Of a stretch of 64,000 bases of DNA, positions 29,047 through 49,923 are shown piece after piece; position 1 is the first letter of the stretch; every line of letters begins with the position of its first letter. A program made the position numbers and the translations under genes. Source of the DNA: Zobellia galactanivorans (GTDB lineage Bacteria; Bacteroidota; Bacteroidia; Flavobacteriales; Flavobacteriaceae); NCBI RefSeq assembly GCF_000973105.1, contig NC_015844.1, positions 186,001 through 250,000 on the forward strand. The letters are read 5' to 3'. Below the pieces are notes generated by a model that saw only the letters and a program-made list of their open reading frames with translations, ran no database searches and was not told the DNA's origin.

Positions 29047-29766
29047 ATGGACAGAAGAAAGAGTATACAGACCATGATCCTAGGTGCGGGGGCTTCCGCA
29101 CTTGCCTTCCACGGATGTAAGGGCGAAGGGGACGGGAAGACGGAAGTGGCCGTTCAGGAAGCAGCGCAGCCCCATTATTTCGGGCGTACGCCCAAGGAAC
29201 TCGAGCGTATCGAAAAGCTCAATGCCGAGCGCTTGTTCAACGAACACGAAATGGAGACCATCGCCGTGCTCAGCACGGTGATCCTTCCCCCCAAGGAACC
29301 CTTTGGAGGGCCCTTGGAGGCCGATGTGCCCGAATTCATAGAGTTTATCGGAAAGGACATGCCCGATATGCAGAACACCCTTTTGGGGGGACTGATGTGG
29401 CTCGACCACCGGAGCAATACCGAATTCGGGACCGAGTTCAAGACGGCCACCCTCGAACAGCAGAAACAGATCCTCGATACCATCTGTTATCAGGATATGG
29501 ACGTCCCCCTGGACGAACAGCCCTTGGAGATACAGTTCTTCGCCCTTATGCGGAACCTGGTGGTCACCGGGTATTACACCTCCAAGGTAGGTATAGCCGA
29601 CCTGGGCTACAAGGGGAACTCGCCCAACGTTTGGGACGGGGTGCCCGACGAGGTGCTCAAGAAGCACGGCGTGGAATACGATCCCGAATGGATCGCCAAA
29701 TGTGTCGACCAAAGCAAAAGGAACGACATTGCCGAATGGGACGAAAATGGAAATCTTTTGACATAA
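29047..29766 (+). CDS. Gluconate 2-dehydrogenase subunit 3-like protein
   Basis: A 239-residue partner of the GMC enzyme. It starts with a twin-arginine type signal ('MDRRKSIQTMILGAGASAL') ending in Cys24, a possible Tat lipoprotein. The mature part resembles the small 'subunit 3' of gluconate 2-dehydrogenase ('METIAVLSTVILPPKEPFGG', 'FFALMRNLVVTGYYTSKVG'), thought to help export and fold the flavoprotein. Like the GMC gene it is very GC-rich. Its last 32 codons plus stop are duplicated 20 kb away (49763 onward), see the repeat entries. A dedicated cytochrome third subunit is missing beside it; the haem proteins at 14205-20089 are the nearest electron-acceptor candidates, which is speculation. 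Confidence 0.88.
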   Translation: MDRRKSIQTMILGAGASALAFHGCKGEGDGKTEVAVQEAAQPHYFGRTPKELERIEKLNAERLFNEHEMETIAVLSTVILPPKEPFGGPLEADVPEFIEFIGKDMPDMQNTLLGGLMWLDHRSNTEFGTEFKTATLEQQKQILDTICYQDMDVPLDEQPLEIQFFALMRNLVVTGYYTSKVGIADLGYKGNSPNVWDGVPDEVLKKHGVEYDPEWIAKCVDQSKRNDIAEWDENGNLLT

Positions 29767-29827
29767 ACCATAATAACAGAAACCGATTTACCCTATTAAG
29801 TAAAAAAGCCCCCAATTTGGGGGCTTT
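29667..29827 (+). repeat. 161-bp direct repeat, left copy (3' end of subunit-3 gene plus terminator)
   Basis: This segment covers the last 32 codons and stop of the subunit-3 gene, the 38 nt after it, and the whole bidirectional terminator. It is repeated at 49763-49923 in the same orientation with a single mismatch (A at 29815, C at 49911). Immediately outside the segment on both sides the two loci do not match. The copies are exactly 20,096 nt apart and enclose the utilisation island. Near-identity implies a recent duplication or ongoing gene conversion. Confidence 0.97.
29805..29827. terminator. Bidirectional terminator between subunit-3 gene and GH117
   Basis: Ten-base arms AAAGCCCCCA and TGGGGGCTTT with a 3-nt loop. 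On the minus strand the stem is followed by six T's, so it should end the leftward GH117 transcript well; on the plus strand it has only three T's. It lies 39 nt after the subunit-3 stop and 37 nt after the GH117 stop. Confidence 0.85.
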
Positions 29828-29863
29828 CCCATTTCATGGGATAGTCTTGCATTTACACAAGTT

Positions 29864-31075
29864 TCAATCCTTTTCCATTTTGTATTCTAAAACTTTTTCA
29901 TATTCACGGTTAATACTATCTCCCTTTTGAATGCTCAAATCACAATCAAAACGTCTTAAGTAGTTCCATTTTCCTAATACATGGCTCAACCCCCAAGTAA
30001 TACCTTGACCAGGTTGGCTATCGGTATCAACAAAATTCCCGACACGATATGTACCACCTGCTTCGGGCTTTTCTAAACCATGTTTTACAGGATAAAAATT
30101 TATACCATCTTCCGCATATTGGATGCTGTTCGCCTCAGGTCCTTCACTAAGAAATGCACATACCCCCTTTCGGTAGGGCCAGACAATGCATTCATGCCCT
30201 CCTATTAAGACTGGATTATATACTGACTTCTTATAAGGTCCTTCCGGTTTGTCGGCTATGGCTACACCGATGACGGCATTTGGCATATCGGCGTATTCTT
30301 TCGTAAAGACCCCATCGGAAATATTTGGCTTCCATGGAACGCGACCGGCACTTTTATAGTAAAGCCAATACTTTCCTTCTCGTACGACTAAAGTGGGATC
30401 GTGCACTACTTCGCCGTCCCATGAATCTTCTGGCCCCACTTCAAGAATTGGTTTCTCCCAACGATGCCAAGGTCCGGTCGGTGAATCGGACCATGACATT
30501 CCTATTTTATTCTTATTGAAGTCACCACCGTCAAATTTACCACCGTTCCATCTCGCTTCTTTTAAACTACCGGCGGCTTGATAAAAAAGATAATATTTAT
30601 TATTGGCAACCAGTATGTCGGGCGTAAATACACTTCGCGCATCAAAGCTCCCTTTGGGGCCCCTATCTACGGCTACCCCTTGTTCTTTCCAGTTGTACCC
30701 GTCTTTTGATGTTGCATAATATATGCTTGCCATATCCCAATGAAACGCCCGCAAGCTATCATTTGCAGCTTTGGGTCCAACTACGGGAACATTACTCGGC
30801 GGTCTTGTATACCATACATAATAAACACCTTCAATCTTAATTATACTAGATGGATCACGTCTTGTAACTCCCTCTTCATAACCAATACCTTTAATGTCAG
30901 AAAAACTAAACTTGGTATTGAACTCATTATATTTATCGAATCTCAATTTACTTGCCCTAAAACGTTTGTAAGCGGCACTTTCCTGTTTTCTCTGGGAATA
31001 ACAAGAAGCCCCCCCTATAAATAAAAGGAAGACTAAAACTTTTATATTTATTCTTTTTATGGCATTTTTTCTCAT
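29864..31075 (-). CDS. GH117-family glycosidase, lipoprotein (island copy)
   Basis: A 403-residue five-bladed beta-propeller of family GH117, whose known members release 3,6-anhydro-L-galactose from neoagaro-oligosaccharides. It has a lipoprotein signal (Cys25). Residues matching the described active site are present: Asp74 in 'VTRRDPSSI', Asp226 in 'VVHDPTLVV', and His294-Glu295 in 'IGGHECIVWP'. An N-terminal helical arm with 'YKRFRASKLRFDKYNEF' resembles the dimerisation arm of the family. It ends the leftward island operon, 121 nt after the lyase-like gene. Being in a uronate-processing operon, its target may not be agar; the divergent paralog at 58031 sits with a sulfatase instead. GH43-like propellers are the main alternative, less likely. 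Confidence 0.85.
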   Translation of the reverse strand: MRKNAIKRINIKVLVFLLFIGGASCYSQRKQESAAYKRFRASKLRFDKYNEFNTKFSFSDIKGIGYEEGVTRRDPSSIIKIEGVYYVWYTRPPSNVPVVGPKAANDSLRAFHWDMASIYYATSKDGYNWKEQGVAVDRGPKGSFDARSVFTPDILVANNKYYLFYQAAGSLKEARWNGGKFDGGDFNKNKIGMSWSDSPTGPWHRWEKPILEVGPEDSWDGEVVHDPTLVVREGKYWLYYKSAGRVPWKPNISDGVFTKEYADMPNAVIGVAIADKPEGPYKKSVYNPVLIGGHECIVWPYRKGVCAFLSEGPEANSIQYAEDGINFYPVKHGLEKPEAGGTYRVGNFVDTDSQPGQGITWGLSHVLGKWNYLRRFDCDLSIQKGDSINREYEKVLEYKMEKD

Positions 31076-31196
31076 GTATTAAAAAATTACTGATTGGTTT
31101 CTAATTTCTTAAAGTAAAACTAGTTCATTTATAAATAAGTAGACAAAGAATACGTTTATTGATTGTGCTCAAATAGTCGTATAAAAACAGCTACCA

Positions 31197-33137
31197 TTAA
31201 TCGAATACAGCAGTTGATTCCAAACTGTATCGAATTTTATCTGCGGTAAAATCAAAATAAACACCTTCCGCAATACCGTTGACGTATTCAATAGGTGTCC
31301 CTGTTCGCTTGAGTTGGCCATTTACATTGTTCAACACGCTAAATTTGATTGCTTTCTCTTTTAAACCTATAGAAACTTCGGATTGATTCAATTCGATTTT
31401 TGTATTGTTTTCGCCATCGAAAACAAGCATGGGCCAAGTAATTCGTTTCTCGGCTTCAATCCCCTTAAATTCATTGTTTACGGTTACTTTACCTTTTTCA
31501 ATTGTAATCGTTTCTATTGATTTCTTTTGGTCACCTAGGTTATACGTCACCTTAAATTTCACTAAATCTTGTCTCTCTTTAATAATTTCAACCTCTGGGG
31601 TAATAGCTTGCTGTTTGGCCAATGACTCCCATGATCCATCTTTTGTTCTCCAAGACGGCCCTGTAGCCATATAGGTTCCTTCTCCGCTGAAATAGGGGGC
31701 CAATCCGTTCGATGGGCCCAATTGGGGGTTGCCATCCTTGAGATGAACTCGAACAATACCCGTTGGGTTGTACATATTATCACCTTCGGTTTCGTATTCC
31801 AAATATGTACCACTTGCATTGGCAATTATTTTGTGGAAGGGTTTTAATATGGGTAATACAAAACCTCCAATATCTGCGGGTGATGGCAATTCTTCAATTT
31901 CATCATTGGAAAACTGCCATGCTTGTGCCAACATTGATGTTGCCAACATATTATAACATGTATGCATCGAATACTTCTCGTATCCATGTCTTTTTTCTAT
32001 GGGAAATCTGTTTTTGACAATAAATCCCGAACCATCCATACGAATCCATTTTTTTATGGATTCCAGAGATAGGGACGCTGCTCGTTTAAAGGCACCAGCC
32101 TCGCTTACCCTTCCACTTTTTGCGTATGCAGAAGCATATATCTCAAACAGGACGCATTGCTCGGCTTCGTTCCAAATATGGTGACTGCTTCGGTAACCTG
32201 TCGGAAGTTCTCCAAATGGAGATTGCATAAATAACGAAGTCCAAGCTCCCTTCCATAAATTATCCCGCATTTTTACGGCATGTTTTCCCTTGTATCCCAA
32301 TTGAAGCATTCCCGAAAGATAATGTCTTGGAAAAAGGTCATACGGTAACGGATTACCATGCTCGTTATACATACCCAGTTCGGTAAAATTATTCAACTGG
32401 ATACCCAACATTTTTTCAACATAATCGGTATTGGTAAAACCATTTATATTTCTTAAAAATTCGCCTGAGGTATGGACAAGAACCCAATTATTTCCTTCGG
32501 ACTTGTCATAGGTTGCATATAATTTTTCAATCTTTATGGAATTTATTTTCCGATCCCACTCTGCCAGACGCTCTTTGCTGGCATAGGGTTTGAACAAGCT
32601 ATAGGCCATCATAACCGGCCACGTATAAAAATCGCCATGATTTCCATTTACCGTGGCATTAACCATATCAACTAAAGCAATGTCTAGGGCTTTCATTCCC
32701 CGTTCCGCAAGCAGATCGTTCTTTTGGATATAAGAAGAGGCAACAAGGGCCGATACACTATGGGCAAAACAGGGAGTACTATAATATTTCTCCGTTTTTT
32801 CTACAGGATCAATAATACGTCCATTGCTATCTTGATACTTTAGCATGGCCCGAACTTGTTTCTCAATAACTTTCAAATAATCTTCTTTCTTATTGGCACT
32901 TGGCTTAAAATCAGTAGTTAACACCTGATTTGACAAAAAAGTATTTATTTGATTTGCCATGGGATGTGCGCCCATTTTTAAGGAATTCCCTTTAAGAATA
33001 TTTGGAGGCAGCAAAAAGGTGTCTTTTTCTGTCAAAAACTGTTTTTTTTCTGAAAGCATAGCTTTTTTATCATCTTGTTTACACCCAATACCCATCAAAA
33101 CGATCGTCAATGTTATACATATGCCTGTTTTTTTCAT
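31197..33137 (-). CDS. Putative alpha/alpha-barrel polysaccharide lyase or hydrolase, lipoprotein
   Basis: A 646-residue lipoprotein (Cys19) that I cannot place in a named family. Residues about 80-410 are helix-rich with repeated aromatic/His patches ('NGNHGDFYTWPVMMAYS', 'NNWVLVHTSGEFLRN', 'YDLFPRHYLSGML', 'SSHHIWNEAEQCVLFE', 'YSMHTCYNMLATSMLAQAW'), as in alpha/alpha-toroid lyases. Residues about 430-646 look like beta-sandwich. Several His and Tyr residues could serve as lyase base and acid. Its operon also encodes GH105/88, KduI and a KduD-like enzyme, which act on the unsaturated uronates that lyases produce, so a uronate lyase is the best guess. A uronidase of the GH154 kind is an alternative. 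Confidence 0.7.
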   Translation of the reverse strand: MKKTGICITLTIVLMGIGCKQDDKKAMLSEKKQFLTEKDTFLLPPNILKGNSLKMGAHPMANQINTFLSNQVLTTDFKPSANKKEDYLKVIEKQVRAMLKYQDSNGRIIDPVEKTEKYYSTPCFAHSVSALVASSYIQKNDLLAERGMKALDIALVDMVNATVNGNHGDFYTWPVMMAYSLFKPYASKERLAEWDRKINSIKIEKLYATYDKSEGNNWVLVHTSGEFLRNINGFTNTDYVEKMLGIQLNNFTELGMYNEHGNPLPYDLFPRHYLSGMLQLGYKGKHAVKMRDNLWKGAWTSLFMQSPFGELPTGYRSSHHIWNEAEQCVLFEIYASAYAKSGRVSEAGAFKRAASLSLESIKKWIRMDGSGFIVKNRFPIEKRHGYEKYSMHTCYNMLATSMLAQAWQFSNDEIEELPSPADIGGFVLPILKPFHKIIANASGTYLEYETEGDNMYNPTGIVRVHLKDGNPQLGPSNGLAPYFSGEGTYMATGPSWRTKDGSWESLAKQQAITPEVEIIKERQDLVKFKVTYNLGDQKKSIETITIEKGKVTVNNEFKGIEAEKRITWPMLVFDGENNTKIELNQSEVSIGLKEKAIKFSVLNNVNGQLKRTGTPIEYVNGIAEGVYFDFTADKIRYSLESTAVFD

Positions 33138-33195
33138 TTTAAATGTTTTAAAAAGTTGAACCTGCCCAATGACGGACGCAATTATAATTCTTGAA

Positions 33196-34449
33196 TCAGA
33201 TACCTATAGGTTTTATTTCTTTAATGAATACTCTTAGAATAAGCCAATTCAGCATATAGACCGAAGAAGCTACCATAAAAATGAGAAAATAACTTCCGGT
33301 ACTCTCTAACAATACTCCTACAAAAGCAGCGGACAATGCCCCTCCAATCGCACCCGTGAAGCCGCTTAGTCCCATCATTGAACCTACGGCATTCTTCGGG
33401 TACACGTCGGAAACAATAGTGAATATATTGGATGCCCACCCTTGGTGGCCTGCAGCCGCTAGTGATATGAAGACTACGGCTACCCATAGGTTTGCTATTT
33501 GCGAAACCAGCATTACGGGCAAAACCAATAGGGCACATATAAAAATTGTAGTCTTACGTGCATAATTGACACTCTTTCCATTCTTTATAAAGTTAGATGA
33601 CAACCATCCGCCACCTATACCTCCTATACTCGAAACAGCGTAAATAACAATCAAAGGCAGTACAACATCCTTAAGATTTACACCGTGGGTTTTACTTAAA
33701 AAATCGGGAATCCAGAATAGAAAGAACCACCACACCCAATCTGAAATAAACCTAGTAGTGCAAATGGCATAGGTCTGTTTGTACTTAAAAAGTTCAATCC
33801 ATTTTAGTGATGGCCTATTGTCTTTTTCCTCATTATCCTGATGAATATATGCTAATTCTTCCGGGGTTATTTTAGGGTGTTTTTCTGGAGTAGTATAATA
33901 ATTCAACCAAAAAAAGACCCAAATCAGGCCTAATGCCCCCGTTATGATAAAAGCCCATTGCCAACCAAACGAAAGGGTAATCCATGTTACAACAATTGGC
34001 GCCAATATGGCTCCTACGGTAGAACCGGAATTAAAGAGTCCGGCTGCAAAGGCGCGCTCTTTTTTTGGGAACCATTCAGCTATGCCCTTAACGGCAGCCG
34101 GAAAATTAGCAGCTTCACCAATACCTAGTACAAATCTCGCTGCAGCGAAGCTAACCCCCCCCCTTGCTGCGGCATGTGCCATACCGGCAATACTCCAAAC
34201 CACAATTGCCCAAACGTAACCCAGCCGAGTTCCATGTTTATCTATAAATTTTCCCATTGACAATAGACCAATGGCATACGCAATTTGAAAAGCAGTTACT
34301 ATGTAACCATAATCAGCTTCGCTCCAGTTTAAGTCATCAGCTATAAATGGTTTTAATATTCCAATAATCTGCCTATCTATATAATTGATTGTCGTAGCAA
34401 AAAATATCATAGTCAATATTTTCCATCTAACCCCTTGCTTCCCTTTCAT
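33196..34449 (-). CDS. MFS transporter, hexuronate/galactonate (ACS) type
   Basis: A 417-residue major facilitator with 12 predicted membrane helices. The N-terminal 'FFATTINYIDRQIIGILKPF' and the helix 4 region with 'RFVLGIGEAANFPAAVKGI' followed by 'EWFPKKERAFAAGLFNSGS' are signatures of the anion:cation symporter branch that contains ExuT (hexuronates) and the galactonate transporter. It would bring uronate monomers or short unsaturated fragments into the cytoplasm for KduI and the SDR encoded just upstream (24-nt gap). A run of nine G's lies inside the coding sequence (34155-34163) and could cause phase-variable frameshifting; the frame is intact in this copy. Confidence 0.9.
   Translation of the reverse strand: MKGKQGVRWKILTMIFFATTINYIDRQIIGILKPFIADDLNWSEADYGYIVTAFQIAYAIGLLSMGKFIDKHGTRLGYVWAIVVWSIAGMAHAAARGGVSFAAARFVLGIGEAANFPAAVKGIAEWFPKKERAFAAGLFNSGSTVGAILAPIVVTWITLSFGWQWAFIITGALGLIWVFFWLNYYTTPEKHPKITPEELAYIHQDNEEKDNRPSLKWIELFKYKQTYAICTTRFISDWVWWFFLFWIPDFLSKTHGVNLKDVVLPLIVIYAVSSIGGIGGGWLSSNFIKNGKSVNYARKTTIFICALLVLPVMLVSQIANLWVAVVFISLAAAGHQGWASNIFTIVSDVYPKNAVGSMMGLSGFTGAIGGALSAAFVGVLLESTGSYFLIFMVASSVYMLNWLILRVFIKEIKPIGI
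34155..34163 (-). repeat. G9 tract inside the MFS transporter gene
   Basis: Nine consecutive G's on the coding strand encode part of 'AARGGVSF' about residues 96-103. Mononucleotide runs of this length in coding DNA are classic slippage sites. The present length keeps the transporter in frame. Confidence 0.9.
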
Positions 34450-34473
34450 ATATTACTTTATTTAAGAACTATC

Positions 34474-35274
34474 CTATTTATTCTCCCCTTCTAAATAACC
34501 AAAATTGGCTGTGATACCCCCATCAACATATATGATTTGACCATTTATAAAATCACCCGCTTGTGACGACAACAATAAGGCCGTACCACAGAGGTCTTCT
34601 ACTTCTCCCCATCTATTGGCCGGGGTACGCATCATTATAAGTTTGTTGAACGGATGGTTCTTCGATGCATACGCTTTGGTTTTTGCCGTTTTAATATACC
34701 CTGGACCTATTCCATTTACCTGAATATTGTGCCTGCCCCACTCTACACACATATTCTTTGTTAACATTTTCAAACCTCCTTTAGCCGCGGCGTAGGCAGA
34801 CACTGAATTTCTACCATACTCACTCATCAATGAACAAATGTTTATGATTTTCCCCCCTCCCTTTTCTATCATTTCAGGTACCACACTTTTGGATACCATG
34901 AAGGCGGATATAAGGTTTATATCGATGACTTTACGAAAGTCATCATTGTTCATATCCAATATAGGAGACCGTTTTATTATTCCAGCATTATTTACCAAAA
35001 TATCAATGGTTCCAAAAAACCTCTTAATAGTTTCAAAGGACACCGTTATTTCTTGTTGATCGCTAACATCAAAGGCTATCGTAAATATTTCATATCCTAG
35101 ATTTGCGAACTCATTTTTAACGGAATCAAGTTTATCTTGGTTGCGACCATTGATACAGACCTTTGCTCCTGCTTGAGCTAACGCCAATGCAATTACTTTG
35201 CCTATTCCGTCGGACCCCCCGGTTACTAGGGCATTTTTACCCTCTAATTTGAATGAATTCAATATATGGGCCAT
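34474..35274 (-). CDS. SDR-family oxidoreductase, KduD-like
   Basis: A 266-residue classical short-chain dehydrogenase. The cofactor loop 'TGGSDGIG' (18-25) is followed by 'NNAG' (95-98) and the catalytic Ser148, Tyr161 and Lys165 ('YAAAK'). The closest functional group is 2-deoxy-D-gluconate 3-dehydrogenase/gluconate 5-dehydrogenase. With KduI encoded 3 nt upstream, the likely reaction is reduction of 2,5-diketo-3-deoxygluconate to 2-keto-3-deoxygluconate (KDG) with NAD(P)H. Assignment to that step comes from the pairing; SDR specificity cannot be read from motifs alone. Cytoplasmic, no signal peptide. Confidence 0.85.
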   Translation of the reverse strand: MAHILNSFKLEGKNALVTGGSDGIGKVIALALAQAGAKVCINGRNQDKLDSVKNEFANLGYEIFTIAFDVSDQQEITVSFETIKRFFGTIDILVNNAGIIKRSPILDMNNDDFRKVIDINLISAFMVSKSVVPEMIEKGGGKIINICSLMSEYGRNSVSAYAAAKGGLKMLTKNMCVEWGRHNIQVNGIGPGYIKTAKTKAYASKNHPFNKLIMMRTPANRWGEVEDLCGTALLLSSQAGDFINGQIIYVDGGITANFGYLEGENK

Positions 35275-35277
35275 CTG

Positions 35278-36123
35278 CTATCTTAATTGGTTTGCTTTGA
35301 CCATGTCCATATCGCTAAAGTCAAGATTTTCACCCGCCATGCCCCATACAAAACTGTAGTTGGAGGTGCCGGCAGCCGCATGAATTGACCATGGAGGGGA
35401 AATAACCGCTTGATGGTTACCCATCCAAACATGTCTTGTTTGTTGTGGTTCTCCCATAAAATGACAGATGGCTTCGTCTTGAGGAAGGTCGATATATAGG
35501 TAAACCTCCATTCTACGATTATGGGTATGTGGGGGCATCGTATTCCATATGCTACCTTTCTTTAGTTCTGTTATACCCATTTGCAGCTGACAGGTTTGTA
35601 CGGTTGCCTCTACAATATATTGGACTATGCGCCTTTCATTTGCTTTTTCGGAAGTGCCTAAATCGAGGGTTATCGTATCGGTCGAAGCAATCTTTTTTAT
35701 TGGAAAACCTTGATGTGCAGGTGCAGAATTGATATAAAACATAGCCGGGTTCCCTGGATCTTCACTGCTTAAGTGAATATTCTTTGCTCCCATTCCTATA
35801 TATAAAGCCTCCTTATGTCCTAAACGATACTTATCTTCTCCTACAGTTACTATCCCCTGATTACCTATGTTTAATATCCCTACTTCTCTACGGTCACAAA
35901 AATTTTGAGCTTTTAAAGGTTCTATCGTAGCTAATTCCAATACTTCATCAATAGGCACCGCTCCTCCTGAAATAAATCGATCATAATGTGAGTATATAAG
36001 GGTTATTTTATCTTTTTCAAATAAATTTTTGATTAAAAAATGTTCTCTTAATTCTTCGGTGTCATATGATTTTACGTCGCTCGGGTGCGATGTAAAGCGT
36101 TCTTGATATTCTATATTCGCCAT
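35278..36123 (-). CDS. kduI: 5-dehydro-4-deoxy-D-glucuronate isomerase
   Basis: A 281-residue KduI. It converts 5-keto-4-deoxyuronate, the spontaneous product of an unsaturated uronic acid, to 2,5-diketo-3-deoxygluconate in the cytoplasm. The zinc ligands line up with E. coli KduI at constant offset: His199, His201 and Glu206 in 'PPHTHNRRMEVY', and His248 in 'WSIHAAAG'. The 'HFMGEPQQTRHVWMGNHQAV' segment is family-typical. Length is normal. It is 7 nt after the GH105/88 gene and 3 nt before the SDR, giving the usual order of unsaturated-uronate processing. Its presence is the strongest sign that the island target contains uronic acid. Confidence 0.95.
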   Translation of the reverse strand: MANIEYQERFTSHPSDVKSYDTEELREHFLIKNLFEKDKITLIYSHYDRFISGGAVPIDEVLELATIEPLKAQNFCDRREVGILNIGNQGIVTVGEDKYRLGHKEALYIGMGAKNIHLSSEDPGNPAMFYINSAPAHQGFPIKKIASTDTITLDLGTSEKANERRIVQYIVEATVQTCQLQMGITELKKGSIWNTMPPHTHNRRMEVYLYIDLPQDEAICHFMGEPQQTRHVWMGNHQAVISPPWSIHAAAGTSNYSFVWGMAGENLDFSDMDMVKANQLR

Positions 36124-36130
36124 GCTTGTA

Positions 36131-37282
36131 TTAGTTGTCGTTCAAATTCATTTTATACATCTCACTTGCTGCTAACAAAAATGTGCCTGTTACATATTCA
36201 TGAGAATCATCTTTTGACAAATTTACCGGCCTATCACCTACCAATTGCCCCCATTGAACCTTACCTTCTTTACTAACTTCATCCGTAACGGATTTCCAAG
36301 CCTTCTTCACTACAGGAACAAACTCATCTTTATCAAGTATTCCATTGTTTATACCGTACGCAAGCCCATAAATAAAGAAGCTGGTACCACTAGTTTCCTT
36401 GAAGGGCGCATATTCCGGGTCTGCAAGATTTGGATACCAAAACCCTTCTTGAGTTTGTTTGTCTTTTAGGGCATAGGCCATATCTTTCAATAACAGCTCG
36501 TATCTATTATAACTTGCATGCTCCATAGGTAGGTATTCAAGTATACGTGCAATACCGGCTATTGCCCACCCATTACCCCTTGACCATATCACTTTTTTTC
36601 CATTGGCGGTAACCTGTTCGTTACCTTTCCATTTAGGGTCGTTTTTTCGTGCGTCGATATTTTCAGGAAAAAACCGTTTATCTCGATAGAATAAATGCTC
36701 ATCCGTATCATATAATTTACCATACACATCCCAAAAGCAGGATTCCATCCACTGCAAGTATTTTTCGTCACCGGTAACTGAATATAGCATGGCCAATGCT
36801 GGCGGGCCGGTGAATAGACCATCCACATAACGTCTTCCTCCTTCAAAATACCATTCATCAGGGTTCGCTACGGGGTTTTTTATTCCAGGGTTTTCCAAGT
36901 GTTGGACAATTCCCCTTATCTTACTTTTCTCAGGCTCTACCATATAAGATTGCAACATGGTTTGACCTATGGTCAATAAATTCACACCGCTAGCCTCATG
37001 GTCTGGTGGCAGGGTTGGCAGGGTCCAATTCAAATCTTCACATAGCTGGTTGGACTGTGCCAAATACGTGTCGTCACCCGTTGCTAAATAACTTGCCATA
37101 ACCCCGGTATAATAGGTTCCCCGTATCCAATTGTCATCAAAAGCTTTCCAAGGATTTTTTAACTGGTATTCATTTGTCCTATCCATCAATTCTTTTATTG
37201 AGGATTGATTATAAATGGATTGCGCTTTTAAACTCGGGCTTAGTACAACAGCCAAAAAAAGAAGTATTGTGTATTTTTTCAT
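36131..37282 (-). CDS. GH105/GH88-type unsaturated glucuronyl hydrolase
   Basis: A 383-residue (alpha/alpha)6-barrel enzyme with signal peptide ('MKKYTILLFLAVVLSPSLKAQ'), periplasmic. It would release the 4,5-unsaturated uronic acid from the non-reducing end of lyase products by hydration. The likely catalytic Asp154 is in 'RRYVDGLFTGPPALAML', and the family motif 'WSRGNGWAIAGIARILEYLP' is intact. Sequence patterns fit GH105 (YteR-like) somewhat better than GH88. It sits downstream of susD after a 134-nt gap and directly before kduI, so its product feeds that pathway after uptake. Confidence 0.9.
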   Translation of the reverse strand: MKKYTILLFLAVVLSPSLKAQSIYNQSSIKELMDRTNEYQLKNPWKAFDDNWIRGTYYTGVMASYLATGDDTYLAQSNQLCEDLNWTLPTLPPDHEASGVNLLTIGQTMLQSYMVEPEKSKIRGIVQHLENPGIKNPVANPDEWYFEGGRRYVDGLFTGPPALAMLYSVTGDEKYLQWMESCFWDVYGKLYDTDEHLFYRDKRFFPENIDARKNDPKWKGNEQVTANGKKVIWSRGNGWAIAGIARILEYLPMEHASYNRYELLLKDMAYALKDKQTQEGFWYPNLADPEYAPFKETSGTSFFIYGLAYGINNGILDKDEFVPVVKKAWKSVTDEVSKEGKVQWGQLVGDRPVNLSKDDSHEYVTGTFLLAASEMYKMNLNDN

Positions 37283-39111: not shown

Positions 39112-39121
39112 AATTATAGAT

Positions 39122-42604: not shown

Positions 42605-43483
42605 TCATACCCTGGTTATACGGTTCTGCTTTCTATATTGGCTCGGAGAAATACCTTTAATTCTTTTAAATATTTGTGAAAAAGCAGAAGGATTATTAAA
42701 TCCCGAATCATAACAAACCTGAATCATACTCAACTTTTCTTCCAGTAATATTTTACAAGCATATTGAACCCTCACTTCAAATAAGAAATCATTGTAACTT
42801 TTCTTAACAGTGTTCTTAAAGTACCGGCAAAACGCACTTTTGGACAAGTTGGCCACCTCTGCAATTTCTTCCAATCGAATTTTTCTTCTGAAGTGCAACA
42901 TGGTGAACTGTATTATTTTATTCATCCTATCCTTCTCTTTAGGGTCTGACGATTTATGATGATCGAAGGGAGACAAGATGTATGCATTTTTTGATTCGGA
43001 CATTATGGAAAGTATTCGCAATAATGATAATATCTGGTTAAAAGATGATTGATGAAGCATTTCATGTAAAATTATGGCAATGACCCGGTTTTCTTCACCC
43101 TTGACCCTCACACCTCCCAAAGCGTCATAAAAAACTTTTCTTAACCCGTGTGATTCCCGAAGGTTAAGCAAGTCTTTGCCGGCAAAGTCCGTATTAAACT
43201 TAACTACAATGGCTTTGGTCAGTTGTTTTGTATTCTCTTGATAGAAATCGTCATGACTGATCCAAACGTGTGTGAGCTCTTCACCGACCAAAACCAAATC
43301 TCCCTTTTTATAAGATTTAATACTACTGCCCACATACCTCGTGCCATATCCCTCGATTATATAGGCCAATTCCAATTCTTTATGGTAGTGTAAAGGATTT
43401 GTAAAATGGGCGGTTTCAATATAGTTTACCGAAACCGCTTCATTTGGAGTTCGGAGTGACGAGAGAAACTTTGGTTTGATCAT
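42605..43483 (-). CDS. AraC-family transcriptional regulator of the island
   Basis: A 292-residue regulator with an N-terminal cupin effector domain ('HYHKELELAYIIEGYGTRYVG', 'GDLVLVGEELTHVW') and a C-terminal pair of helix-turn-helix motifs ('IRLEEIAEVANLSKSAFCRYF' region and 'SMIQVCYDSGFNNPSAFSQIF', then 'GISPSQYRK'). The ATG at 43483 gives the usual length for this type; an ATG 57 nt upstream would add a Cys/Ile-rich tail without family support. It lies between the two divergent arms of the island, and nearly identical boxes occur upstream of each, so it probably controls both in response to an uptake product. Confidence 0.9.
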   Translation of the reverse strand: MIKPKFLSSLRTPNEAVSVNYIETAHFTNPLHYHKELELAYIIEGYGTRYVGSSIKSYKKGDLVLVGEELTHVWISHDDFYQENTKQLTKAIVVKFNTDFAGKDLLNLRESHGLRKVFYDALGGVRVKGEENRVIAIILHEMLHQSSFNQILSLLRILSIMSESKNAYILSPFDHHKSSDPKEKDRMNKIIQFTMLHFRRKIRLEEIAEVANLSKSAFCRYFKNTVKKSYNDFLFEVRVQYACKILLEEKLSMIQVCYDSGFNNPSAFSQIFKRIKGISPSQYRKQNRITRV

Positions 43484-43530
43484 TTTTAATTGAATATTGA
43501 CTAAATATCGAATATTTATTAAGCACATGC

Positions 43531-43557
43531 AAATATTCATAAAATATTGATCAATAT
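43531..43557 (+). promoter_or_regulatory. AraC-type box candidate with palindrome, rightward arm
   Basis: AAATATTCAT (43531-43540) is followed by a perfect 14-bp palindrome ATATTGATCAATAT (43544-43557). It lies 66-92 nt upstream of the DUF4861 gene and 50-75 nt upstream of the AraC gene, so it could serve both. The first ten bases match the susC site exactly. Confidence 0.45.
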
Positions 43558-43622
43558 ACAGGCATTCTTTTAATCAATAATTAATTTCTTTTGTGGATAC
43601 CCAATTATATAATAATTACAAT

Positions 43623-44822
43623 ATGATTCGTTCAACCAAAAATCTTTCTCTTCTACTTCTTCTTTTTCTAGGTATTTCTTGTTCTGAAAGAGAGCCGAGC
43701 TATGAAATATTGGTAATGAACGACACCGATATTCCAAGAACCCGCGAAATCGTGGAAGTTTGGTTAAAAGATCTTCCAGAACAAAAGGAAATAGGTAAAT
43801 ACACATTAACCGATGAGTCGGGAAAACCACGACAACTACAATATGTAGATAAAGACTCTGACGATATTGACGATTACCTGATTTTCATGACAAACATAAA
43901 TGCTCGAGAGAAAAGAGCCTTCACATTAAGTCGTAATAAGGGTTTTACGGAAAAAGCAGATAGTTCTTTAACCACATATTGTAGAATTGTTCCTGAAAGA
44001 ATGGATGATTTTGCATGGGAAAACGATAAAGTAGCCTTCAGAAGTTATGGTCCGAAGTGTCAAGAACTTTTTGAAGAGGGCAATGCTTCAGGTCTTATTT
44101 CCAGTGGTATAGATTGTTGGACCAAACGTGTAGAGTACCCAATTATTAATAAATGGTACAAAAATGACAAAAAAGGTAAGTCGTATCATGAAGACCACGG
44201 TGAAGGACTTGATAATTACCACGTAGGAACGACCAGAGGTTGTGGTGGTACGGCACTTGTTTATAAAGGAAAAACCATACTAAGCAAGAATTTTGTAAAC
44301 TGGAAAATTTTAGCCAACGGCCCTATCAGAAGCATTTTTGAATTGGAATATGCCCCTATCATGGTCGGGGGAGACCCTATAAATGAAACCAAACGAATTA
44401 CCATAGACCTAGGTACTCAACTGTACCAATGTGAAGTGTTTTATAAGAGCCAGGAAACCATGATAAATGAGATGTTCATGGGGCTTGCCTTACACGACGG
44501 AAAAGGTAAGATCAATTCAAGCATGGGAGAAGGTTGGGTATCTTACTGGGAACCCATGGGGGATTCATATTTGGGAACGGCTGTCTTGACAAATCCCGAC
44601 AACATATCGAAAGTATCCTTGAAAAGTATAATCCATGAAGACGAAAGCAAAAATAACGTTGGAATCCATTCGCGGATATTAAACAATACAGTTAAATATT
44701 GGTCCGGTTTCGGATGGAAAAAAAGTGGTGATTTCGACACTCCAGAAGACTGGGATAATTATGTCAAAAAGGAAGCTGCAAAAAAAAGAAACCCTATAAA
44801 AATTAAAATATCCAGTAAGTAA
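43623..44822 (+). CDS. DUF4861 lipoprotein
   Basis: A 399-residue lipoprotein (lipobox Cys20 in 'LFLGISCSERE'); the longer frame begins with GTG ten codons earlier and is disfavoured. The family landmarks are 'SYHEDHGEGLDNYHVGTTRGCGGTALVYKGK', split here at residues about 190-220, and 'YWSGFGWKKSGDF' near the C-terminus; I name only the pattern. DUF4861 proteins are found in Bacteroidota loci for acidic polysaccharides beside lyases and GH88/105 enzymes, and their activity is not established. Beta-rich character suggests a galactose-mutarotase-like or lyase fold. It heads the rightward arm and is followed 6 nt on by the RraA-like gene. Confidence 0.82.
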   Translation: MIRSTKNLSLLLLLFLGISCSEREPSYEILVMNDTDIPRTREIVEVWLKDLPEQKEIGKYTLTDESGKPRQLQYVDKDSDDIDDYLIFMTNINAREKRAFTLSRNKGFTEKADSSLTTYCRIVPERMDDFAWENDKVAFRSYGPKCQELFEEGNASGLISSGIDCWTKRVEYPIINKWYKNDKKGKSYHEDHGEGLDNYHVGTTRGCGGTALVYKGKTILSKNFVNWKILANGPIRSIFELEYAPIMVGGDPINETKRITIDLGTQLYQCEVFYKSQETMINEMFMGLALHDGKGKINSSMGEGWVSYWEPMGDSYLGTAVLTNPDNISKVSLKSIIHEDESKNNVGIHSRILNNTVKYWSGFGWKKSGDFDTPEDWDNYVKKEAAKKRNPIKIKISSK

Positions 44823-44828
44823 AAAATT

Positions 44829-45515
44829 ATGTGGAAAACAGACGAAGAATTATTTGAAATTGCAAAAAGAGAACTATTTACGGCTTTAGTAGGCGATATT
44901 TTAGACAAGATTGGTTCTGTGCATCAATTTCTCCCGCCAAACCTTAAACCTGTTAAAGATGATATGGTCATCATAGGTAGGGCCATGCCCGTCTTAGAGG
45001 CGGATGTATTTGCCGAAACTACCGAATCAAGAAATAACCCTTTAATGAATAAACCTTTTGGATTGATGTTCGAAGCTTTGGACAATTTAAAAAAGAATGA
45101 GGTCTATATCTGCACGGGAGCAACCTCGCCTTACGCACTCTGGGGGGGACTTATGAGTACGAGAGCCATGAAACTTGGTGCTGCCGGGGCAGTAGTCAAC
45201 GGATATTCCAGGGACACAAATGAGATAGAAAAACTAAATTTCCCAACTTTTTCTACAGGCACGTATGCTCAGGACCAAGGTCCACGAGGCAAAGTTATGG
45301 ATTTTGCTTCCGCAATCGAAATCAATGGAATCAAAATCAATCCAGGTGATATTGTATACGGAGATAGAGATGGAGTGCTTATAATTCCAAAGGAACTAGA
45401 AAAAGATGTATTTACAGGAGCAATTGAAAAAGCCCGTGGAGAACAAGAGGTTAAAAAAGCTTTGGAAGAAGGTATGAGTACAGTCGATGCTTTTAATAAA
45501 TTCGGCATCATGTAG
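44829..45515 (+). CDS. RraA-like class II pyruvate aldolase family protein
   Basis: A 228-residue cytoplasmic protein of the RraA/4-hydroxy-4-methyl-2-oxoglutarate aldolase family (once labelled dimethylmenaquinone methyltransferase). Family core 'YALWGGLMSTRAMKLGAAGA' and 'VVNGYSRDTNEI' are present; the Arg-Asp pair of the 'D-x20-R-D' aldolase pattern is kept. Members cleave 2-oxo acids to pyruvate with a divalent metal. No KDG kinase or KDG-phosphate aldolase is in the window, so this protein may cleave KDG or a related 2-keto-3-deoxy acid made by KduI and the SDR. That role is an inference; a regulatory RraA role is unlikely in this context. Confidence 0.82.
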   Translation: MWKTDEELFEIAKRELFTALVGDILDKIGSVHQFLPPNLKPVKDDMVIIGRAMPVLEADVFAETTESRNNPLMNKPFGLMFEALDNLKKNEVYICTGATSPYALWGGLMSTRAMKLGAAGAVVNGYSRDTNEIEKLNFPTFSTGTYAQDQGPRGKVMDFASAIEINGIKINPGDIVYGDRDGVLIIPKELEKDVFTGAIEKARGEQEVKKALEEGMSTVDAFNKFGIM

Positions 45516-45623
45516 TAGTATAGAACAATTGAGTATATGGTGTGTGCAGGTGATGAATTTTAATCAATAAATCAACATATGCTTCTTTGCGATTCAAATC
45601 CAAAATTAGTCAACACCCTTTAC

Positions 45624-45662
45624 TTCCTTTAATTAAGGAAAGAAAGATATTAGAAATATCTT
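45624..45662 (+). promoter_or_regulatory. Two tandem inverted repeats upstream of the GH31 gene
   Basis: TTCCTT-TAATT-AAGGAA (45624-45640) is followed 3 nt later by AAGATATTAGAAATATCTT (45644-45662; perfect 8-bp arms, 3-nt loop), ending 16 nt before the GH31 start. They lie in a 163-nt gap inside the rightward arm. They may be an internal operator or RNA stem-loops that tune expression of the two downstream glycosidases. Confidence 0.45.
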
Positions 45663-45678
45663 CATACATTTACATTCT

Positions 45679-47847
45679 ATGATAAAATTTTTCCTGCCCC
45701 TTACTTTTTTAATCGTTCTACTTTCATGTACCAATACAGAAAAACCACTAAGCAATGACCTCGTAAAGGCTAATTGGCAGGAGACTTTACCTGGCATCTG
45801 GAAAACCGTAATAAACAAAGGTGAAACTTATAACTTTATTGACCAAGCCCCGGTTGCACCAAAGGTAGAAGCTATCAAGAAACTTGGCAACTCAGGCTTC
45901 CCCCTAGATAAGTCTTCAATTGAAATAAAGGTAATAAATGGTAAAACTTATATAAGTCTTCCGTTAAAAAAGGAGGAACAAATATATGGACTAGGGCTAA
46001 ACTTTAAAAGTCTTGATCAAGTGGGTAAAGTGAAACGCTTACATGTAGATCATTATAACCATAGAGATGATGGTAGAACACATGCACCTGTTCCATTTTA
46101 TGTTTCATCACTAGGGTATGGGGTCTTTATAAACTCTGCTCAGTATATAGATGTTTATGTGGGCACCGGTGTAAAAAAAGACAATCCTGATGCTCCTAAA
46201 CCTAGGGACAGAAACACTGACCCCAACTGGGAGTCAAACCCATATTCCAATGCGGTGGAGATTCTTATACCATCAGACAAAGCAGAAATTCTTGTTTTTG
46301 AAGGGGAAACGCCAATGAAAGTTGTCCAGAGATTTAATCTTTTCTTTGGAGGTGGTGTTATCCCCCCAAAATGGGGATTGGGTTTTTGGCAACGCACGCC
46401 AACATTATATAACAACAAGGAAGTAATGAAAGAAATTAGTGATTTTAAGGAAAAGAACTTCCCGTTGGATGTAATTGGATTAGAACCAGGATGGCATAGT
46501 AAATCTTACCCTTGTACCTTTGAGTGGGACGCAGAAAGGTTTCCGAATCCCTCCCAATTCATAAACCAAGTGGACAATGAAAGCGTCAAACTTAACCTTT
46601 GGTGCAATCCATATGTATCTCCATCATCTTCCATGTACGATAAGCTCATGCCTTTAAGCGGTTCCCATAAGGTATGGGGTGGAATTGTTCCTGATCTTAA
46701 TATGGAAGAAGCCAGGAACATTTACGGTGACCATATAATGAAAAACCAGATATCCCTTGGTATCAGCGGTTTTAAAGTAGATGAGGTAGACGGATTCGAT
46801 TATTGGCTATGGCCAGATGTTGCCACATTCCCTTCAGGTGTTTCTGCAGAACAAACACGGCAAACCTATGGGCTTAAATTTATGGATATGGTCACCGATC
46901 TTTATAGAAAACAAAATACCCGTACCTATGGGCTGGCAAGAGCCAATAATGCAGGTGGTGTAGCTATGCCCTATGCTTTGTACAATGATCAATATGCCCA
47001 TCAAGATTTTATTGCGGGTTTGGCCAATTCTGGTTTTAATGGTGTGCTATGGGAACCAGAGGTTAGGGAGTCCGATTCCGCGGAAGAATGGCTCAGAAGA
47101 ATGCAGACCAGTTGTTTATCTCCCATGGCAATGATCAACGCTTGGGGCTCGGGCACCAAACCTTGGTCCTTCCCTGAAGTATACGAGGCATGTCAGGAAA
47201 TTGCGTACTTAAGAATGCAATTGCTTCCATATCTCTATAGTTCGTTTTCACGTTACTATTTTGAAGGAATTCCCCCTTTTAGGGCAATGGCTTTAGAAGA
47301 CAGTTATAATAGCGAACGTAAACTAATAAAAAAAGAATTAGATCATACAGACAATCCGTACCAGCAAGCTTTATTAAAAGAAAACCTTACCCAATACATG
47401 ATGGGAGATAATATTATGGTAGCCCCAATGTTTACAGGCATGAAAGAACGGGAAGTAATATTACCAAAAGGGCGCTGGTTCAATTTTTACACGGGTAGCT
47501 TCATGGGAGATGGCGAAGTGATTACCGTAGCTCCCCCTGTAAACCAAATTCCTTTGTTTGTGCGCGATGGAGGCATTATTCCAATGATTCCGCCAATAAG
47601 GCAAACATCTGAATGGAAAGAAGGCACTCCCCTAACGCTTAGAGTGTATGGTAATGCCCCTGCAGAGTTCATTCTATATGATGATGATGGTAAAAGTTAT
47701 GATTTTGAAAAAGGAAAGTATACAACAAAACTGCTTAAAGCGGATAAAGGTGTCGGACAGATAAAAGACCTTCAAAATAATAGTTCTTGGACATATGGAG
47801 AAATACACTGGGAATTTATGACAAAGACCAATGTACCTATCAAATAA
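45679..47847 (+). CDS. GH31-family alpha-glycosidase, lipoprotein
   Basis: A 722-residue GH31 enzyme with lipobox Cys17 ('LTFLIVLLSCTN'). The N-terminal beta-sandwich is followed by the barrel with 'PPKWGLGFWQ' (229-238), the nucleophile region 'GFKVDEVDGFDYW' (Asp368) and 'NSGFNGVLWEPEVRESD' (about 450-466), where typical alpha-glucosidases carry 'W.GD' for the acid/base residue. The altered acid/base loop sets it apart from standard alpha-glucosidases and alpha-xylosidases; alpha-galactosidase-type or other specificities in GH31 are possible. It is followed 39 nt on by GH29. It should trim alpha-linked side sugars in the periplasm or on the surface. Confidence 0.88.
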   Translation: MIKFFLPLTFLIVLLSCTNTEKPLSNDLVKANWQETLPGIWKTVINKGETYNFIDQAPVAPKVEAIKKLGNSGFPLDKSSIEIKVINGKTYISLPLKKEEQIYGLGLNFKSLDQVGKVKRLHVDHYNHRDDGRTHAPVPFYVSSLGYGVFINSAQYIDVYVGTGVKKDNPDAPKPRDRNTDPNWESNPYSNAVEILIPSDKAEILVFEGETPMKVVQRFNLFFGGGVIPPKWGLGFWQRTPTLYNNKEVMKEISDFKEKNFPLDVIGLEPGWHSKSYPCTFEWDAERFPNPSQFINQVDNESVKLNLWCNPYVSPSSSMYDKLMPLSGSHKVWGGIVPDLNMEEARNIYGDHIMKNQISLGISGFKVDEVDGFDYWLWPDVATFPSGVSAEQTRQTYGLKFMDMVTDLYRKQNTRTYGLARANNAGGVAMPYALYNDQYAHQDFIAGLANSGFNGVLWEPEVRESDSAEEWLRRMQTSCLSPMAMINAWGSGTKPWSFPEVYEACQEIAYLRMQLLPYLYSSFSRYYFEGIPPFRAMALEDSYNSERKLIKKELDHTDNPYQQALLKENLTQYMMGDNIMVAPMFTGMKEREVILPKGRWFNFYTGSFMGDGEVITVAPPVNQIPLFVRDGGIIPMIPPIRQTSEWKEGTPLTLRVYGNAPAEFILYDDDGKSYDFEKGKYTTKLLKADKGVGQIKDLQNNSSWTYGEIHWEFMTKTNVPIK

Positions 47848-47886
47848 CTTATTAATTACCATTTAATCCAAGAATCTCAAAAAAAT

Positions 47887-49503
47887 ATGAACTCAAAATA
47901 TCACCTATTTGCTTTGCTACTAGTGCAAGCTTTGATAGGTCCAAAATCAGCCTTCGCACAAGAGATCGATTTTAAACCTACCTACGAATCACTAAAACAG
48001 TACACTACCCCAGAATGGTTTAGAGATGCAAAATTTGGTATTTGGTCACATTGGGGCCCTCAGTCAGTGCCAGAAAGGGGAGATTGGTATGCACGGTTCA
48101 TGTATTTACAGGGAGTACTGGATTGGGGAGAAAAATTTGATGTCAATGAATCCCATACAAAGCGATATGGACATCCATCAGAATTTGGATATAAAGATTT
48201 AATCCCTTTATTCACCGCGGAGAAATGGAACCCTGAAAAATTGATGGAATTGTATCAAAAAGCTGGTGCTAGATATTTTGTATCCATGGGACAACATCAT
48301 GACAATTTTGATATGTGGAACTCCAAATTGCAACCGTGGAATTCCGTTAATATGGGCCCTAAACGAGATATTGTAAAAGAATGGCAAGATGCTGCCAAAA
48401 AAAATGGAATGCCTTTTGGGGTTTCTTTTCATGGCGAAGCTGCTTGGACCTTTTTTGAATCTTCCAGATTGTCCGACCACAAGGGTCCTTTCCAAGGAGT
48501 ACCGTATGACGGCTGGCAAACAAAAGAAGATGGTAAAGGAAAATGGTGGGAAGGTTATGACCCTCGTGACTTATATGGGCAGCCACATAAGCCTAAACTA
48601 CCTGCAAATGTTAAATATGCTGAAGAAGTTGTGGAGGAAGGGGAACCACCATCCGACGCTTTTTTGGATAATTTTATAGGTAGGGTGTATGATGTTCTGG
48701 ACCAATACCATCCAGAACTTATTTATTTTGATAGTGGGCATTTCCCAGCAGGAAAAGCACGTGGTACCAAATTGATAGCCGACTTTTATAATATGTCTCA
48801 AAAATGGAACAAGGGGATAAACCAAGCGGTAGTAAATGCAAAACATTTGACCGATGAGGAACAACAAATGTTTATGCTGGACTTTGAGAATACGCATAGT
48901 AGTGAAGTCCGCAAATTACCGTGGCAAACGGATATTGGCTTTGATGGATGGTTTTATCTTGAAAAAGAAAAAGAAGACTATTTACCTACACAAGACGTAA
49001 TACACACACTTGCAGATATTGTTAGTAAAAATGGTAATATGCTTCTTAATATTACACAATCCGCAAATGGAGAAATTCACCCATACGCTTATCAATTTTT
49101 AAAAGAAATGACCCAATGGATGGCTATAAATTCAGAAGGCATCCATGGAACAAGGCCCTGGATAAAATTCGGAGAAGGACCTTCTAGAATAGAGGGTGAA
49201 AAGGATATTGAACATGAATCCATAGATTATTCATCCAAAGACTTTAGGTTTACAACCAAGGGAAATGTGTTATATGCCATTTTGATGAAGTATCCGGAAA
49301 GCAAAAAAGAAATATCCATAACATCACTTTCAAAAAACGAAATTCTTTGGTTTGGTGACATTGGAAATGTCAGCCTTTTAGGGCATAAAGGCAATTTAAA
49401 ATGGAAAAGAACAGCAAACGGCTTGGTGGTATCCCTTCCTGAAAAAGCACCTTGTGACTATGCATATGTAATTAAAATTTCCTCTTCAAAAAAATCAGGT
49501 TAG
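47887..49503 (+). CDS. GH29-family alpha-L-fucosidase-like enzyme
   Basis: A 538-residue secreted enzyme (signal cut after 'PKSAFAQ'). GH29 landmarks are in order: 'WFRDAKFGIWSHWGPQSVPE' (44-63), 'GARYFVSMGQHHDNFDMWNS' (127-146), and the presumed nucleophile Asp282 in 'PELIYFDSGHF', then 'NGNMLLNITQSANGEI'. GH29 enzymes release alpha-L-fucose, and some act on alpha-L-galactose, which is relevant for red-algal galactans. The active-site His-His-Asp pattern is intact, so it should be active. Substrate (fucose or L-galactose) is undecided. It is the last gene of the rightward arm; about 110 nt later the DNA turns into the IS256 scar. Confidence 0.88.
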   Translation: MNSKYHLFALLLVQALIGPKSAFAQEIDFKPTYESLKQYTTPEWFRDAKFGIWSHWGPQSVPERGDWYARFMYLQGVLDWGEKFDVNESHTKRYGHPSEFGYKDLIPLFTAEKWNPEKLMELYQKAGARYFVSMGQHHDNFDMWNSKLQPWNSVNMGPKRDIVKEWQDAAKKNGMPFGVSFHGEAAWTFFESSRLSDHKGPFQGVPYDGWQTKEDGKGKWWEGYDPRDLYGQPHKPKLPANVKYAEEVVEEGEPPSDAFLDNFIGRVYDVLDQYHPELIYFDSGHFPAGKARGTKLIADFYNMSQKWNKGINQAVVNAKHLTDEEQQMFMLDFENTHSSEVRKLPWQTDIGFDGWFYLEKEKEDYLPTQDVIHTLADIVSKNGNMLLNITQSANGEIHPYAYQFLKEMTQWMAINSEGIHGTRPWIKFGEGPSRIEGEKDIEHESIDYSSKDFRFTTKGNVLYAILMKYPESKKEISITSLSKNEILWFGDIGNVSLLGHKGNLKWKRTANGLVVSLPEKAPCDYAYVIKISSSKKSG

Positions 49504-49613
49504 ATATCCTCTAATATATATACAATTGGCTATAATCTATCGGGATCTATAAATTAAACTCAGTCAAATTTAATATAAAGTTACCAGACCATAGGACTCC
49601 AATTTTGGAAGGA

Positions 49614-49762
49614 CTAGGCCCATTTCTTCTCGATGCTTCCGGTGGCCAGATAGACCGGTTGAGCAATGCCATATCGTTCGTAAAGGCCTCTTTGGCTTGG
49701 TTGCCTTACAACAGTCGGAGAAAGCCCTTCACGGCATTGGCAGTGTAGATTATCTTGCGTAT
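49614..49762 (-). pseudogene. IS256-family transposase remnant (broken, both ends missing)
   Basis: Read on the minus strand, this 149-nt stretch encodes pieces of the C-terminal catalytic part of a mutator-type (IS256) transposase. One frame gives 'RKIIYTANAVKGFLRLL', a stop, then 'GNQAKEAFTNDMALLNRS'; after a frameshift it gives 'VYLATGSIEKKWA' and a stop. In intact relatives this reads as a continuous run of the type IIYTTNAVEGF...GAFTNDMALLK..YLAT..IEKKW. The region upstream of the remnant's codons is replaced exactly at 49763 by the 161-bp repeat, and the normal C-terminal tail is gone. It is dead, but it marks an IS-related rearrangement at the island edge. The 110 nt before it (49504-49613) hold nothing recognisable. 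Confidence 0.8.
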
Positions 49763-49923
49763 CGGCGTGGAATACGATCCCGAATGGATCGCCAAATGTG
49801 TCGACCAAAGCAAAAGGAACGACATTGCCGAATGGGACGAAAATGGAAATCTTTTGACATAAACCATAATAACAGAAACCGATTTACCCTATTAAGTAAA
49901 AAAGCCCCCACTTTGGGGGCTTT
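49763..49923 (+). repeat. 161-bp direct repeat, right copy (orphan 3' end of subunit-3 gene plus terminator)
   Basis: Identical to 29667-29827 except at one base in the terminator loop (49911). It contains the last 32 codons and stop of the subunit-3 gene with no upstream part, so it is not expressed as a gene. On its left it is fused to the IS256 remnant; on its right the second susD begins 21 nt later. Recombination between the two copies would remove 20,096 nt and leave the subunit-3 gene convergent with susCD. Confidence 0.97.
49901..49923. terminator. Terminator downstream of the second susCD pair
   Basis: AAAGCCCCCA and TGGGGGCTTT arms, 3-nt loop, with five T's after it on the plus strand and six on the minus strand. 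It ends 21 nt from the susD stop and should terminate the leftward susCD transcript. It is the second copy of the terminator at 29805-29827. Confidence 0.85.

Follow-up and report, generated by a model that had tools for sequence, protein, structure and literature searches.

Polysaccharide utilisation loci (PULs) that Bacteroidota have acquired horizontally carry SusCD pairs, carbohydrate-active enzymes, uronate catabolism genes (KduI, SDR, GH88) and AraC regulators, and show a patchy distribution and a shift in composition. Integrase islands occupy the 3′ ends of genes, where they are bordered by direct repeats in an excisable layout. Insertion-duplication (Campbell-type) and homology-facilitated illegitimate recombination also give direct repeats of the target, with one copy truncated and microhomology at the junction. 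Here we describe an island in Zobellia galactanivorans that resembles each of these systems. It lies in a window of 64,000 nucleotides (bases 186001–250000 of the single-contig 5,521,712-bp genome, G000), next to a gene pair encoding a GMC oxidoreductase and a Gluconate_2-dh3 protein (subunit 3), and the coordinates of its features are collected in Table 1. The island shares all of the above features of acquired PULs, but it contains no recognised integrative and conjugative element (ICE) or plasmid genes, and it has a 161-bp target duplication and, on one side, the broken remnant of an IS256-type insertion sequence (IS). With integrase islands it has the 3′-end target, the direct repeats and the excisable layout in common; however, we found no integrase, the target is not a tRNA gene and one end is a broken IS. 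Like Campbell-type or homology-facilitated illegitimate events, it has direct target repeats, one of them truncated, and microhomology at one junction. Our preferred reading, to which we assign a probability of roughly 0.6, is that the island entered by an illegitimate, target-duplicating insertion after the lineage split from its congener G008. A literature search for homology-facilitated illegitimate recombination with microhomology and duplication returned plant work only, and one for Zobellia genomic islands with direct repeats returned, judged by title, no literature on this locus.

The two 161-bp copies bordering the island are in direct orientation, start 20,096 nt apart and differ at a single site (repeat position 149; 1/161, 95% interval 0.02–3.4%). 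Their length, with one mismatch, rules out a chance repeat, and they form the sole direct repeat listed at E ≤ 1e-8 by a plus-strand self-BLAST of the window. Both copies comprise the final 32 codons and the stop of the subunit-3 gene, as assigned by Pfam, followed by a GC-rich hairpin whose folding energy, over stretches of 46 nt, is −18.7 to −22.3 kcal/mol for the two strands. The leftward T-run is whole in both copies, and the rightward T-run of the left copy is shortened to TTT (CTTT): the left junction reads GGGGGCTTT then CCC, and the right copy and G008 read GGGGGCTTTTTCC. A preliminary description of this DNA had reported this repeat with its spacing and mismatch, and had placed a bidirectional terminator in each copy. 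Re-measurement gave the same coordinates and mismatch, and Pfam and two-strand folding agree with the content proposed, save for the shortened T-run. Beyond what the preliminary description had reported, the record contains another complete GMC/subunit-3 pair at a distance of 3.47 Mb, and this pair includes a third copy of the first 99 bp of the repeat. As the terminator is missing there, we rejected this second locus as the origin of the duplicated segment.

An empty site is found in G008, the one close relative in which the locus could be compared. The G008 contig C15 starts inside subunit 3 and continues with 312 bases of the gene, one terminator and then susD; the subunit-3 end and the single terminator (L028, 1–373) directly precede susD, and G000 and G008 agree at all 22 bases from the repeat end to susD. 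On the right, 14.2 kb of flank are collinear with G008 at 93.8% identity; on the left, 12.0 kb are collinear at 95.1% with contig C12, which stops inside GMC. The susCD flank itself was detected in 4/9 genus genomes at E ≤ 1e-30, with high identity only in G000 and G008 (64–67% in the other two). The preliminary description had predicted such a contiguous empty site, and had proposed as ancestral layout a GMC/subunit-3 pair converging on susCD around a single terminator; the arrangement in G008 matches both.

Next, we considered the age of the insertion. The repeat copies differ from G008 at 12 and 13 of 161 sites, compared with one between themselves (Fisher p = 0.003). The same holds for their non-coding 61 bases, which are absent from the distant GMC/subunit-3 locus: one difference between the copies versus six and seven to G008. 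This suggests that the insertion and duplication are probably younger than the G000–G008 split, barring conversion between the copies. If the island were instead ancestral to both genomes, its excision from G008 through the repeats would yield precisely the G008 layout. In that case the repeats should not be younger than the split. They are nevertheless far closer to each other than to G008, likewise in the non-coding bases, and only repeat-to-repeat conversion could mask their age. Moreover, a 646-amino-acid (aa) protein encoded in the island has a match in just one of nine genus genomes (E ≤ 1e-10), namely its own, and none in the other eight. We therefore regard an ancestral island as quite unlikely.

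The right end of the island lies within a truncated Transposase_mut element, which we take to belong to the IS256 family. The remnant begins about 40 bases past the stop codon of the GH29 gene and is cut exactly where subunit-3 sequence starts. Its inverted repeat (49543–49565) matches 20/23 bases of the one ending a related element at 527–528 kb, and positions 49565–49770 are 83% identical to G000:C1:527935–528144. That related element (G000:C1, about 526906–528235; L041:6907–8236) has inverted repeats at both ends (18/23 and 23/23) and a transposase split into two frames; it is the only close relative of the border remnant among the own-genome matches listed. The right junction in the window reads TATCGGCGTGG, where the overlap between IS and subunit 3 is exactly 5 bp, CGGCG. 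Random joints of these sequences share at least 5 bases in 0.5% of cases, and CGGCG does not occur at the corresponding point in the other Transposase_mut copies of G000 examined, which are of another subgroup. No IS end was found at the left junction, where the best inverted-repeat match is 13–14/23. A composite transposon was rejected because an IS end is present on one side only and because the duplication is 161 bp long rather than short.

The 3′-end target and the direct repeats recall integrase islands, and the borders might be those of an integrase-type island or ICE remnant with a 161-bp att repeat. However, none of the 13 main island ORFs matched an integrase, recombinase or conjugation family in Pfam (ORFs below about 100 aa were outside the scan), and there is no tRNA gene anywhere in the window, on which grounds we rejected a tRNA/att island. 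In addition, att cores are usually shorter than 161 bp and the right end is a broken IS, so that such an origin appears very unlikely. As no integrase was found and the joint combines an IS with microhomology, an illegitimate, target-duplicating insertion is favoured. Near-identical repeats also invite misjoins in assembly. Nevertheless, the sequence forms a single 5.52-Mb contig, and the copies differ by one base and each have distinct unique flanks. On the chromosomal side, both borders have a counterpart in G008, and on the island side they have one in no other genome. An assembly artefact is hardly credible.

The main rival is a two-step history. The preliminary description had offered, as its second reading, the loss of a second GMC/subunit-3 copy by IS-linked deletion, an alternative kept alive by the IS256-type remnant, which ends exactly at the right junction. 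In the two-step history, a Campbell-type homologous integration of a circle or donor segment would have brought in the island together with a whole GMC–subunit-3–terminator unit, giving two complete copies, and a deletion from the IS into subunit 3 would then have removed this second copy except for the last 100 bp of subunit 3 and the terminator. The remnant is cut at the junction and joined by microhomology, just as a deletion endpoint would be, and the dispersed GMC/subunit-3 copies of this lineage are homogenised, so they recombine. Against this, an extra event is needed, the carrier must already have held the terminator of this locus, which is not present at the second GMC/subunit-3 locus, and the own-genome search found no further part of a second copy at the site. 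We consider the two-step history unlikely, if less so than an ancestral island.

The border structure suggests how the preferred single insertion may have proceeded. The island would have inserted at the point of the Zobellia chromosome where the GMC/subunit-3 and susCD operons converge. Its right end would have broken inside the IS256-type element just downstream of the GH29 gene, and the broken IS end would have joined subunit-3 DNA at CGGCG, 161 bp upstream of the point in the terminator where the left end joined. A single event of this kind would be enough to leave the 161 bp on both sides. The joint could have arisen by a microhomology-primed template switch or by homology-facilitated illegitimate recombination, which are not distinguishable here. 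Such an event would account for the layout seen, in which subunit 3 is whole to the left of the island and lacks its start to the right, both borders have a terminator, and mobility genes are not recognised. As a side effect, the leftward GH43 and susCD operons each retain a hairpin with an intact leftward T-run, which is predicted to act as their terminator. The proposal in the preliminary description that the target 3′ end was duplicated on entry is supported. Excision between the repeats is possible and would release a 20,096-bp circle, lost for want of a replicon; a search for excision of PULs through direct repeats in the Bacteroides-related literature gave shufflon work only.

Several points weigh against this reading of the insertion. 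Polarity depends on a single close relative, and in G008 the link between C12 and C15 across the GMC/subunit-3 gap is deduced from their unique flanks, with no read-through sequence. For the left junction, there is no relative with which to compare the island side, and one microhomology of 5 bp carries modest weight. For the joint, the IS sequence was taken from a relative that is 83% identical, and the scan for mobility genes covered the main island ORFs. If the reading holds, the locus represents the recent entry of a whole glycan-use locus in which no mobility genes are recognised, whose two borders can be read and compared with an empty site. This would make it useful for asking how glycan-use loci spread when no ICE is present.

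The island is distinct from its surroundings in both composition and distribution. Its GC content is 39.1% versus 42.5 and 42.8% in the flanks, and mean GC at third codon positions (GC3) is 0.354 for the 13 island genes versus 0.470 for 22 flank genes (Mann–Whitney p = 1.8e-5; the flank set leaves out GMC, subunit 3 and a few short or doubtful ORFs). In the family, the 646-aa gene is present in 3/299 genomes, its own included (E ≤ 1e-50). A SusD scan of an 84,980-species collection, which reaches close relatives only and may exclude the own genome, gave three loci. Agaribacillus aureus, of the order Cytophagales and hence of a different class from Zobellia, has an eight-gene run collinear with the island (DUF4861–AraC–susC–susD–GH88–KduI–MFS–646-aa gene) at 54–83% aa identity, with the SDR gene missing. 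The genome G277 holds the 646-aa gene, KduI, GH88, susD and susC in the order of the window, at which point the compared stretch stops. G243 has susD–susC, the 646-aa gene–KduI–GH88, AraC, DUF4861 and RraA in a rearranged order. In a contig of Zobellia russellii KMM 3677, only the SusC/SusD pair is in common within the flanks compared, at 82–83% aa identity. By these measures the island is a horizontally acquired, foreign PUL. The preliminary description had described it as apparently more AT-rich and, in one of its two readings, as having entered the locus, which the GC3 shift and the patchy distribution support; what it had named as evidence to the contrary, an island carried by all relatives or a flank-like composition, is not what we observe.

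The 13 main ORFs form a susCD locus with its own AraC-type regulator (Pfam: SusD_RagB, Plug, GH88, GH31, Alpha_L_fucos, GH43). The adjacent susC- and susD-like genes and the carbohydrate-active enzymes mark it as a PUL, in line with the polysaccharide locus with its own regulator of the preliminary description. KduI scores above the NCBIfam cut-off for 5-dehydro-4-deoxy-D-glucuronate isomerase and the SDR above that for gluconate 5-dehydrogenase. Together with GH88, these family assignments point to unsaturated uronates, and hence to lyase products. The gene for the 646-aa protein (31197–33137) accompanies GH88 and KduI also in Agaribacillus, G277 and G243, and its product is a candidate enzyme, perhaps a novel one of lyase type. 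The protein has no Pfam or NCBIfam family and no sequence match in the PDB at E ≤ 1. Its predicted structure, made from a two-sequence alignment, has a mean predicted local distance difference test score (pLDDT) of 43. A PDB search with this model gave no matches at E ≤ 0.001; the noise includes a chondroitinase, alginate lyases and a glycosaminoglycan lyase. Among plasmid records there was one match to the 646-aa protein, at 28.7% identity, on the Escherichia coli plasmid p13QT31-2 (NZ_ON934553.1, L065, 8001–9635), where it sits within a glycosyltransferase/dTDP-rhamnose polysaccharide cluster.

Table 1. Features of the island and its borders (window positions unless a contig is named).
Feature	Position	Strand	Basis or comparison
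GMC oxidoreductase and Gluconate_2-dh3 (subunit 3) gene pair	27305..29765	+	Pfam
Left repeat copy: last 32 subunit-3 codons and stop, bidirectional terminator	29667..29827	+	
Island, 19,935 bp	29828..49762	mixed	Pfam/NCBIfam, GC3, not in G008
Island genes GH43, 646-aa protein (no Pfam match), MFS, SDR, KduI, GH88, SusD, SusC, AraC		-	
Island genes DUF4861, RraA-like, GH31, GH29		+	
GH88, SusD, SusC	36131..42289	-	centre of the core common to Agaribacillus (L050), G277 (L061) and G243 (L062)
Truncated IS256-type (Transposase_mut) remnant: terminal inverted repeat, degenerate C-terminal transposase codons	49543..49762	-	
CGGCG microhomology at the right junction	49763..49767		related IS TATCGGCGGGG; native subunit 3 GCACGGCGTGG
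Right repeat copy: subunit-3 fragment and terminator	49763..49923	+	runs on into the susD flank, like its G008 counterpart
Right flank, second susD/susC pair	49924..54713	-	96% to G008:C15:374-5252
Second GMC/subunit-3 copy	G000:C1:3681464-3683923 (L030:11465-13924)		own-genome search

The gene pair at the left border has a history of its own. The two G000 copies are 99.1% identical (2439/2461 aligned columns, 22 differences). The flanks of the second copy are collinear with the congener G001, and GMC/subunit 3 lies between the same two neighbours in 7/7 single-copy congeners, so that the second locus, at 3.68 Mb, looks like the ancestral place of the pair. In G008, four contig ends hold pieces of the pair, with the start on C12 and C5 and the end on C15 and C27; the contigs stop at either end of the pair, a pattern expected if G008 also carries it twice. 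The 3.68-Mb locus is collinear with C5 and C27, and both loci are present in G008. The readable 3′ ends in G008 are 5/313 apart, versus 15 and 16/313 to the window copy. The paralogs are closer to each other than to their orthologs even though the duplication is older than the split, which indicates that the copies are homogenised within each genome. Near-identical paralogs, with both loci present in the sister species, fit concerted evolution, and a strong GC3 excess would fit GC-biased conversion.

This excess is the part of our findings that would surprise specialists. In G000, GC3 is about 0.78 (0.785) for GMC and 0.72 for subunit 3, versus 0.47–0.52 for the neighbours of the second locus, and the readable pieces in G008 have 0.64–0.66 (first 47 GMC codons) and 0.72–0.73 (last 103 subunit-3 codons). 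The seven single-copy congeners have 0.29–0.43 for GMC and 0.34–0.49 for subunit 3, at aa identities of 92–94% and 84–86%. We compared GMC with 34 other family loci (the 29 best-scoring ones and five congeners): its GC3 lies 0.313 above the line predicted from upstream GC, where the residual standard deviation is 0.055 and the largest other residual is 0.107. Transfer from a GC-rich donor is unlikely. Both copies are sister to the seven other Zobellia in the GMC protein tree (99/94), and no genome outside Zobellia exceeds 92% identity to GMC (397 family genomes sampled, 121 matching at E ≤ 1e-250), although an unsampled Zobellia-like donor is conceivable. As a model of high expression we used a 20-kb stretch around ribosomal protein L2, the sole gene there identified by search. 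GC3 is 0.27–0.46 in 32/33 of its ORFs and 0.48 in one, and ordinary translational selection therefore does not account for 0.78.

Among third positions that are uniform across the seven congeners, changes from A or T to G or C occurred at 54/103 sites in the pair versus 44/137 in the flanks (p = 0.002). GC-biased gene conversion fits the GC3 excess best, on one gene pair. Tentatively, the subunit-3 site may be a hot spot of ectopic recombination, in which repeated conversion favouring G and C between loci more than 2 Mb apart would raise GC3 from about 0.4 to 0.78 and the protein would stay Zobellia-like; the same activity would have admitted the island, duplicating the 3′ end, and would also permit its departure. 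Other results speak against conversion of this kind. With G018 added to the outgroup, the excess falls to 32/69 versus 34/108 (p = 0.056); the upstream flank gene has no G018 row, and its sites kept the seven-genome outgroup. The short readable ends in G008 have no excess of changes to G or C (2/10 versus 44/137), and changes in the opposite direction are more frequent there (3/8 versus 1/33, p = 0.019). In the other 34 loci, too, GMC exceeds its upstream flank in GC (by 0.054 on average and 0.108 at most, compared with 0.143 in G000), and some of the excess is therefore a property of the gene.

If true, the hot spot would show GC-biased gene conversion between bacterial paralogs at the scale of one locus and with controls. 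The pair is a natural experiment on the contested question of whether recombination raises GC in bacteria, because single-copy orthologs at the same syntenic place act as controls. Gene conversion between bacterial paralogs is already known (e.g., PMC13061034), and a further study, going by its title, extends the GC-biased gene conversion hypothesis to bacteria (PMC4450053); in its text, the terms paralog, duplicat, ectopic and multicopy do not appear. Among the matches listed in our literature searches, no title concerned GC bias between bacterial paralogs.

Further genes in the window relate to described Zobellia loci. Directly upstream of the GMC/subunit-3 pair lies a sulfatase gene (25464–27113), and a stretch near 3.636 Mb is related to it at 69% DNA identity. 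This gene is probably ZGAL_181 (cgsB2), which is reported to be strongly induced by carrageenan and to have a paralog, ZGAL_3146 (PMC5698469). Zobellia literature naming zgal_19 yielded carrageenan work only. The GH43-like gene at 58031–59296 may be zgal_205, given in another study as the GH117 gene of PUL3 (PMC9296495).

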